Of a stretch of DNA of 40,068 nucleotides, positions 25,836 to 27,761 are shown piece after piece; the first letter of the stretch is position 1, and every line of letters starts with the position of its first letter. The notes under the pieces are model-generated. The model saw only the letters and a program-made list of their open reading frames with translations. It was not told the origin of the DNA and searched no databases. Origin of the DNA: Brachyspira sp. (GTDB lineage Bacteria; Spirochaetota; Brachyspiria; Brachyspirales; Brachyspiraceae); contig NZ_JARHYI010000091.1 of the NCBI RefSeq assembly GCF_029258575.1, positions 1 through 40,068 on the forward strand, written 5' to 3'. Position numbers and translations under genes: made by a program.

Positions 25836-26240
25836 TTTTTATACCTAAATATTTTAATTATCACATTATAATATAATTTTTTGTTTTTTAAAGCTAAAAG
25901 AAAAAATTATATAATTAAAAATAATAAACTTTTTGATAATGCCATTCGTATAAATAGTAAATAGATTAAAAAAGAGGTTTAATATAAAAAAAATGATAAT
26001 AATTATATTATTTACTCTTAAATATATAATTTATATTCAAAATATTCCAAAAAAGCATTATTTGAATTAAATTATATAAACAGAATACTAAAAAAGTCGA
26101 TGTTAATTTGGATAATATAAAAAGAATAAAATATTACATTATTTTTTAAAAAATAGGGAACTTTTTCTATGGTATTATCGTCTAATATAATGAAAGACAA
26201 TAATTAATAATGTGTAGAAAAACATAAATATTGAGGGCTT
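25836..26240. other. Divergent intergenic region before the ECF operon
   Basis: 405 bases between oppositely directed genes. The right end holds the ECF promoter (26157-26182). Around 26075-26150 the plus strand reads QNTKKVDVNLDNIKRIKYY between stops, which looks protein-like and could be a scrap of an old gene; support is slight. No RNA gene or repeat was seen. Confidence 0.5.
26157..26182 (+). promoter_or_regulatory. ECF sigma factor promoter of the Spy-like/sigma/anti-sigma operon
   Basis: GGAAC (26157-26161), 17 bases, CGTC (26179-26182). This is the classical -35/-10 pairing read by ECF sigma factors, and it sits about 60 bases before a three-gene operon that itself encodes an ECF factor. 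Autoregulation is the natural inference. GGAAC occurs at other places in the window, but I found none followed by CGTC at this spacing. Confidence 0.75.
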
Positions 26241-26690
26241 ATGAAAAAAATATTTTATACTATATCTATAATATTATTATTCTCTTTATCTCTTTTTGCC
26301 CAACATGGTCATGGACATCATGGAATGGGCAGAAGAGATAATGAATTCAATAGAAGATTGGGAGATGATTCTTTGAAATTCTTTAGAAAAGTTGGTATAA
26401 CTCTCACAGAAGAGCAATCTGAAAATATTTATAATATATCTATCAAATTTGTAAAAGAAGTAGAGTCTGTCAGATTGGAAATAAAAAAGATAGAAAATGA
26501 TATTAGATTAGAATTAATGAAAGATAATCCTGATAGAAATGCATTAAAAGAATTGATAAGCAAGAAAAAAGAACATGAAGCTTTAATAGATTATTCAAGA
26601 ATAGTTAGAGATTTGGATATTATCAATGTACTGACCCCAGATCAGAAATTAAGATTGAATAGCTGTATGATGCAATGTAGAGATAGATAG
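26241..26690 (+). CDS. Periplasmic Spy/ZraP/CnrX-like protein
   Basis: A 149-residue exported protein: signal peptide MKKIFYTISIILLFSLSLFA (1-20), then a His-rich mature N-terminus QHGHGHHGMG, then a helical LTxxQ-type domain (FFRKVGITLTEEQSENIYN, a long charged helix, and VLTPDQKLRLNSCMMQC). The double LT-EQ/LTPDQ pattern is typical of Spy, CpxP, ZraP and CnrX proteins, which act as periplasmic chaperones or metal sensors. The His cluster and the C-terminal C-x3-C suggest metal binding. It is the first gene of an operon with an ECF sigma factor (13 bases on) and its anti-sigma factor, as CnrX is in the cnr metal-resistance locus. GAGGG precedes the ATG. Confidence 0.82.
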   Translation: MKKIFYTISIILLFSLSLFAQHGHGHHGMGRRDNEFNRRLGDDSLKFFRKVGITLTEEQSENIYNISIKFVKEVESVRLEIKKIENDIRLELMKDNPDRNALKELISKKKEHEALIDYSRIVRDLDIINVLTPDQKLRLNSCMMQCRDR

Positions 26691-26703
26691 ATTAAGGAAT
26701 AAT

Positions 26704-27249
26704 ATGAGCAGTATTATGGCTTATGAAGAGAATACAGATTCATTCAAAATAGGTAATGAAGAAGCTTACAAAGAGCTTATAGAAATGTATAAAAAGCCTT
26801 TATTTAATTTGGTTTACTCTATGATTTCTAATAGAGATGAGGCTGAAGAAATAGTTCAAGATGTTTTTGTTAGTTTTTATATAAAAAGAGAGAGCTTTGA
26901 AGGAAGGAGTAAGATATATACTTGGCTTTATAGAGTTTCTTTTAATAGAGCGGTAGATCATATAAGAAAAAAGGAAAGAGAAAAAAAATATAGATTAAAA
27001 GAATATAGAAATTCACAAATGCAAGAATCGGATAATGATAATAGTATACATAAAATAATACTAGCAGACGCCTTATCAAAATTGAAAGATGATTTTCGTA
27101 TACCATTAATGATGGCTGAATATGAAAACTATTCTTATAGTGAAATATCTGAAAAACTAGATTTGCCTGTTAATACAGTTAGGACTAGAATATTCAGAGC
27201 AAGAAAAAAACTTCTACATATTATGAAAAAAATAGGGGTGAGCTTATGA
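26704..27249 (+). CDS. ECF-type RNA polymerase sigma factor
   Basis: A 181-residue group IV sigma factor. Region 2 runs from about residue 20 to 85 (ELIEMYKKPLFNLVYSMISN, DEAEEIVQDVFVSFY, SKIYTWLYRVSFNRAVDHIRK). Region 4 covers about 120-175 and ends in the DNA-binding helix YSEISEKLDLPVNTVRTRIFRARKKL. There is no region 1 or 3, as expected for ECF factors. The stop overlaps the start of the anti-sigma gene by 4 bases (ATGA). AAGGA lies ahead of the ATG. The promoter at 26157 has the consensus an ECF factor would read, so positive autoregulation is likely. Confidence 0.95.
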   Translation: MSSIMAYEENTDSFKIGNEEAYKELIEMYKKPLFNLVYSMISNRDEAEEIVQDVFVSFYIKRESFEGRSKIYTWLYRVSFNRAVDHIRKKEREKKYRLKEYRNSQMQESDNDNSIHKIILADALSKLKDDFRIPLMMAEYENYSYSEISEKLDLPVNTVRTRIFRARKKLLHIMKKIGVSL

Positions 27250-27761
27250 AAAAAAATCATAAATATTATGAAATGCTTATCAGTAGATACAAAGATAATG
27301 ATTTAGACAGCAATGAAATTTTTGAAATGGAAAAGCATTTAGCTTCTTGTAAATCATGCCAAAAATTTAAAAATGAAATTAATTCTATATCATCTATACT
27401 ATTAGGTACATACAATATTAAAATTAATAAAAAAAGAGAGAATTTATTCAGCAATAAAAAAATCATAACTTCTATTAGTTCAATAGCAGCTGCTCTATTA
27501 ATATTTGCTGTAGTATCTGTAATATATAATAATAAAAATGATAATATAGAATATAATACTCAGTTAATGCTTTCAGATATATCAGTTTCATCAATAATTG
27601 ATTATGATGATGCCAAAGAGGAAGAATATGCTCCACTTTCAGATTATTTCAGTTATGATTTTGCTTATGATAATACAGAAGCAGAAAATAATGAAGATAA
27701 AAAATATACTGAAAATGAAATATCAATAATGTCTGCTTATATATATTATATGGGAAAATAA
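27246..27761 (+). CDS. Zinc-finger membrane anti-sigma factor
   Basis: A 171-residue single-pass membrane protein. The cytoplasmic N-terminus has the anti-sigma zinc motif H-x3-C-x2-C in MEKHLASCKSCQKF (about residues 30-43), the ZAS/zf-HC2 signature that clamps ECF factors. One membrane helix follows at about 75-95 (ITSISSIAAALLIFAVVSVIY). The C-terminal 75 residues, predicted periplasmic, are acidic and Tyr-rich (YAPLSDYFSYDFAYD) and match nothing I know; this part would sense the signal or contact the Spy-like protein. Translation is coupled to the sigma gene by the ATGA overlap. Its stop is one base from the convergent purN stop, so no dedicated terminator fits between them. Confidence 0.88.
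   Translation: MKKNHKYYEMLISRYKDNDLDSNEIFEMEKHLASCKSCQKFKNEINSISSILLGTYNIKINKKRENLFSNKKIITSISSIAAALLIFAVVSVIYNNKNDNIEYNTQLMLSDISVSSIIDYDDAKEEEYAPLSDYFSYDFAYDNTEAENNEDKKYTENEISIMSAYIYYMGK

Follow-up and report, generated by a model that had tools for sequence, protein, structure and literature searches.

What does a secreted Spy-like protein do at the head of an operon that also encodes an ECF sigma factor and a membrane anti-sigma factor? This question is raised by a locus in a DNA stretch of 40,068 nucleotides (the window) from a Brachyspira species with an AT-rich genome of 2.66 Mb. Gut pathogens of swine and humans belong to Brachyspira. A full-text literature search turned up no publication describing an ECF or envelope-stress regulon for this genus, nor one on this three-gene system. 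An earlier note on the window had described a self-contained operon with CnrX-like metal sensing and a role in envelope metal or stress signalling. Our analysis supports the envelope-stress role of this spirochete locus as probable. Considering that metal ligands are unconserved in the core of the Spy-like protein and that the genes put out by the system most resemble those of E. coli BaeR, we favour an autoregulated envelope-stress sigma circuit, a reading that we think somewhat likely and in which the Spy-like protein would be one of the outputs and probably a feedback partner too.

Operon architecture and conservation

The promoter, the three coupled genes, the 13-base gap between the Spy-like and sigma genes and the ATGA overlap between the sigma and anti-sigma genes were all found where the earlier note had placed them (Table 1). 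The promoter, GGAACTTTTTCTATGGTATTATCGTC, lies 58 bases upstream of the ATG of the Spy-like gene. The short motifs pointed out earlier were also present in the window sequences: HGHGHHGM, LTxxQ (as LTEEQ) and C-x3-C (as C-MMQ-C) in the Spy-like protein, and H-x3-C-x2-C in the anti-sigma factor.

Table 1. Positions in the window of the operon, its parts and the remnant upstream of it.
Feature	Position	Strand	Basis
Decayed promoter of the upstream paralogue remnant	25925..25950	+	TAAACTTTTTGATAATGCCATTCGTA, 3 mismatches; 9/2000 shuffles as good
Decayed, frameshifted remnant of a tandem upstream Spy-like paralogue	25984..26146	+	Ordered tblastn pieces in different frames; last piece DNIKRIKYYIIF (11/12 identical to relative)
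ECF-type promoter of the operon, GGAAC-N17-CGTC (extended GGAACTTTT...CGTC)	26157..26182	+	Window letters GGAACTTTTTCTATGGTATTATCGTC, spacer 17
Secreted Spy/CpxP-fold protein (predicted fold), 149 aa	26241..26690	+	ORF, Pfam, AlphaFold model, Foldseek
ECF sigma factor, 181 aa, sigma2 and sigma4	26704..27249	+	ORF, Pfam, orthologues 49-94% identical
Class I zinc-finger (zf-HC2) single-pass anti-sigma factor, 171 aa	27246..27761	+	ORF, Pfam, nearest solved structure RsiW
Anti-sigma zinc-ligand region, invariant H5, H31, C35, C38	27258..27359	+	Orthologue comparison
Anti-sigma membrane helix, residues 73-97	27462..27536	+	Sequence and model
Anti-sigma periplasmic motif 1, LSDYFSY (consensus L[SD]xY[FY])	27636..27656	+	27/27 orthologues
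Anti-sigma periplasmic motif 2, SAYIYY (consensus S[SA]YxxY)	27732..27749	+	27/27 orthologues

A Pfam search upheld the identities proposed for the second and third genes. ECF regions 2 and 4 were strong (E 5e-15 and 3e-15), and Sigma70_r2, r4_2 and TIGR02937 were all above cut-off in a protein of about 180 aa with sigma2 and sigma4 alone, encoded behind a GGAAC-type promoter of its own operon, as is typical of ECF (group 4) factors. In the anti-sigma factor, zf-HC2 was above its cut-off, and the N-terminal helical domain with H31-x3-C35-x2-C38, plus the invariant H5, assigns the protein to the class I zinc anti-sigma factors. Its nearest solved structure in a profile search was RsiW (E 0.009), while a search with the anti-sigma sequence alone returned no relatives. 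In the structure model, the N-terminal helical domain is predicted with confidence, a membrane helix follows, and the tail is of low confidence. This tail is variable in length and sequence and is predicted to be disordered, yet both of its aromatic motifs are retained in every orthologue compared. Short conserved motifs within disordered tails are usually binding or cleavage sites.

The Spy-like protein consists of a signal peptide (residues ~1-20), a disordered His-rich stretch (22-33) and a helical core (44-148), with LTEEQ and LTPDQ repeats in its sequence. It scored 25.9 bits against Pfam Metal_resist, just under the cut-off of 29.2. An AlphaFold model built with 17 relatives as input had a mean pLDDT of 83, and its top Foldseek matches in the PDB were ZraP, Spy, CpxP, STV (Salmonella), CnrX and NccX, with probabilities of 0.96-1.00 but E-values of only 0.02-0.5. 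Nearly all of the best PDB matches fall in one superfamily. In a profile search, STV ranked highest (E 0.03), with CpxP among the matches that followed (E 0.13), all of them weak hits. The accord between these methods, among which no single score is strong, supports the predicted Spy/CpxP/ZraP fold, an exported, all-helical hooked hairpin with LTxxQ-type repeats, and agrees with the Spy/ZraP/CnrX type proposed earlier.

The triad was present in all 26 genomes of the genus that were searched, as well as in three genomes from sister genera, with the sigma gene frameshifted in one of the 26. The earlier reading depended on the Spy-like gene being kept at orthologous sigma/anti-sigma loci and on the promoter being kept upstream of them. 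The Spy-like gene was likewise found in all 26 genus and three sister-genus genomes, ahead of the sigma gene in the 28 intact loci. The promoter was retained at 28 of 28 intact loci, exactly at 27 and with one mismatch at the last (G019), where GAAACTTTTTTATTATTTTAAACGTC is one base off the GGAACTTTT...CGTC consensus. The 4-base overlap of the sigma and anti-sigma genes was seen in all 27 loci where the contig was long enough to check, from which we infer that the anti-sigma factor binds and inhibits its sigma factor.

Two variations on this arrangement were observed. In the complete Brachyspira genome G004 (C1:2136395-2136936, loci L030/L032) the sigma gene is frameshifted, representing either a pseudogene or a sequencing error, and the Spy-like gene and promoters remain. 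In many relatives with larger genomes, a further Spy-like gene under a separate promoter immediately precedes the operon, and this paralogue is intact in many other Brachyspira. The decayed remnant in the window (25925-26146) suggests that the tandem pair was ancestral to the window lineage and that the second copy was lost there.

A promoter shared with dispersed genes

We located motif sites by pattern search, with the reversed pattern as control. The 9-base GGAAC-N16/17-CGTC pattern was rejected as evidence by itself, since in the AT-rich window genome it did no better than its control (4 matches versus 7). Orthologous operon promoters have GGAACTTTT in common, and the extended GGAACTTTT-N12/13-CGTC matched the window genome three times, versus none for the reversed pattern. 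All 26 genus genomes contained 1-10 such sites each, compared with one control match across the 26. Site lists were complete for 22 genomes, which together held 146 sites, with a spacer of 16 at 103 and of 17 at 43.

Most of the remaining Spy-like genes of the genus are associated with this motif. A homology search identified 60 non-operon Spy-like genes, and 56 of them have a same-strand site no more than 1 kb upstream, whereas about 0.07 would be expected by chance, assuming uniform placement. Other targets, assigned from examined sites and Pfam, were genes for RND efflux pumps (ACR_tran), OEP/TolC-like channels, DUF305, rhodanese, PepSY_like and DUF4405 proteins. The ACR_tran pump genes were often preceded by a small lipoprotein gene behind the motif. 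A chemotaxis receptor gene and, in the divergent G019, an adenylosuccinate lyase gene were single cases, and several sites had no obvious gene within 450 bases.

The motif precedes orthologous operons, in agreement with the autoregulation proposed earlier. Because the same promoter also marks a dispersed regulon, the operon is not self-contained as had been claimed. The window genome has only three exact sites, at the operon, at a DUF305 lipoprotein gene (C19) and at a Gly/Tyr-rich Spy-like locus (C151), and its regulon is therefore small. Across 26 Brachyspira species the conserved promoter provides a ready target list and a map, open to testing, of what is probably an envelope-stress response.

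Some of the genes behind these sites have unusual features. The DUF305 lipoprotein with an operon-type promoter in the window genome (L110:1763-2452, G000:C19) has two MIPHHQGA motifs, a hint of a metal link. Secreted Spy-like proteins at L104, L111, L119 and L126 carry Gly/Tyr/Arg-rich low-complexity N-terminal stretches (YGRGYGRG...), and a small GY-rich secreted protein is encoded just upstream of them. In several species (L107:460-726, L128:577-831 and L096:569-772), the gene between the promoter and the RND pump gene encodes a small putative lipoprotein that has a membrane helix at its C terminus; the L107 copy had no Pfam match. Conserved sites at L102, L122, L124 and L125 have no ORF of at least 50 aa close behind, and small proteins or small RNAs are possible there.

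Relatives beyond the genus and a proposed circuit

In the sister genera, both the operon and a Spy-like gene were again preceded by the motif. It was rare in the order-level relatives G150 and G162; one of the G162 sites is followed after 38 bases by a Spy-like gene, and the others look unrelated. A hand-chosen set of 18 genomes from other spirochetes contained 0-2 sites, mostly away from such genes. The order of Spy-like, sigma and anti-sigma genes was also found in a Spirochaetia genome (L175, sigma factor 43% identical) and in Fibrobacterota (L176, L179 and L181). In all four, GGAAC...CGTC precedes the Spy-like gene, at a distance of about 200 bases in L179, and GGAACTTTT is present in three of them. 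An ECF gene lies directly downstream at 16 of the 21 best-scoring, and thus not randomly sampled, Spirochaetota Metal_resist (PF13801) loci outside Brachyspira. Many relatives in Bacteroidota have the sigma gene, a different anti-sigma-like gene and then the Spy-like gene.

The Fibrobacterota anti-sigma tails (L176, L179 and L181) share PL[SC][SA]..YY and Y.SPLF.D motifs. A firm alignment of PL[SC][SA]..YY with the Brachyspira tail motifs was rejected, as a multiple alignment keeps them apart, and the resemblance is only suggestive.

Sequence comparison thus covers the conservation of the operon, the fold, the promoter and the regulon. In the circuit that we favour on these comparative grounds, the ECF sigma factor would at rest be held at the inner membrane by the zinc-finger anti-sigma factor. 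Periplasmic stress would inactivate the anti-sigma factor, most likely via regulated proteolysis. The freed sigma factor would then recognize GGAACTTTT-N12/13-CGTC promoters and turn on its own operon, the secreted Spy-fold family, RND pumps together with TolC-like channels, and genes for small lipoproteins or periplasmic proteins. The Spy-fold protein of the operon would be a chaperone-like output in the periplasm. Gene order and the conserved tail motifs suggest that it probably has a feedback role as well, in which it may bind the aromatic motifs within the disordered tail of the anti-sigma factor and shield that factor until unfolded clients titrate the Spy-fold protein away. The analogy is with CpxP, the feedback partner of CpxA. 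Attraction between a basic Spy core and an acidic anti-sigma tail was rejected as the mode of contact, since the core is not basic across the genus, where its net charge lies between about +2 and -5. The regulon is more in keeping with general envelope stress than with a signal specific to metal, and the DUF305 target may leave room for a metal signal, copper in particular.

A broader version of this circuit can be put forward tentatively and with some reserve. The triad could be an ancient module common to Spirochaetota and Fibrobacterota. Its Spy-fold chaperone would serve the zinc-finger anti-sigma factor as a periplasmic co-inhibitor that can be titrated, reading protein damage directly by binding to the short aromatic motifs of the tail (LSxYF, S[SA]YxxY), with the paralogue family as the main output. 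The repeated linkage of Spy-fold and ECF genes in several phyla raises the question of whether Spy-type chaperones serve generally as sensors for anti-sigma factors, beyond acting as metal sensors (CnrX) or effectors (Spy).

Alternative readings and known systems

The Spy-like protein could instead be an output chaperone only, encoded first through an accident of autoregulation, with the anti-sigma tail alone sensing stress via a protease. Many other Spy-like genes do have an operon-type promoter but no adjoining sigma gene, which speaks for this reading. However, the linkage of Spy-like and sigma genes holds across Spirochaetota and Fibrobacterota and, in reverse order, in Bacteroidota, suggesting a regulatory tie, and we regard the output-only reading as rather doubtful.

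The CnrX-like metal sensing proposed earlier fared less well. Under this reading, the Spy-like protein would bind a metal ion, causing the anti-sigma factor to let the sigma factor go and inducing metal efflux or detoxification. It draws on the fold common to CnrX and NccX, on HGHGHHGM and CMMQC in the window protein, and on the RND pumps, TolC-like channel and DUF305 protein of the regulon, much as cnrCBA follows cnrYXH. Against it, the folded core has no invariant His, Cys or Met among the 13 operon orthologues compared, so that the His/Glu/Met ligands expected of CnrX and NccX sensors find no counterpart in a conserved core His, Cys or Met. The His-rich stretch is replaced by Pro/Gly-rich sequence in most species, HGHGHHGM is lineage-specific and the C-x3-C tail is unique to the window protein; sensing via either feature was rejected, as neither is conserved. 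The protein also has a signal peptide, whereas CnrX is membrane-anchored. Similarly, its anti-sigma factor is of the zinc-finger class, whereas CnrY is a class II anti-sigma factor (PMC7406223). Since the core lacks conserved ligands and the metal-like features are private to a lineage, a CnrX-type sensor in its specific form is unlikely. That the promoter belongs to the second ECF factor of the genome (about 29% identical and present in every Brachyspira genome), with the triad as one target, is very improbable, considering that the motif recurs before the triad in sister genera and Fibrobacterota, that no site adjoins the second ECF gene among the places listed and that self-promoters are common at ECF loci.

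The favoured envelope-stress circuit combines elements of several known systems. In E. coli, the BaeR regulon contains spy, mdtABC and tolC, and acrD is reported as another BaeR target, so that one regulator induces the Spy chaperone, RND pumps and TolC (PMC2731931). BaeSR is a two-component system, whereas Brachyspira would use an ECF sigma factor and has several Spy-fold genes. A similar operon is CnrYXH of Cupriavidus metallidurans, where a periplasmic protein, a membrane anti-sigma factor and an ECF sigma factor are likewise encoded in one autoregulated operon with RND efflux as output (PMC9045368), and the periplasmic protein is linked to ours by a fold match. The Brachyspira system differs in its lack of conserved metal ligands, its class I anti-sigma factor, its gene order and its dispersed regulon. 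The same three kinds of gene occur in the Bacteroidota triads and in Azospirillum, as 'RpoE8 / hypothetical / periplasmic heavy metal sensor' (PMC12826043). There the Spy-like gene is last, whereas it is first in Brachyspira, and the Bacteroidota anti-sigma-like proteins have no zinc finger.

The anti-sigma factor resembles RsiW of the RsiW/SigW pair in its H-x3-C-x2-C helical bundle. The extracytoplasmic part of RsiW is unlike that in Brachyspira, and proteolysis is established for RsiW and presumed here. Finally, CpxP of the CpxAR system, among the best fold and profile matches, is also a Spy-fold periplasmic protein made by the system that it may restrain. CpxP acts on a histidine kinase, whereas the partner in Brachyspira would be an anti-sigma factor.
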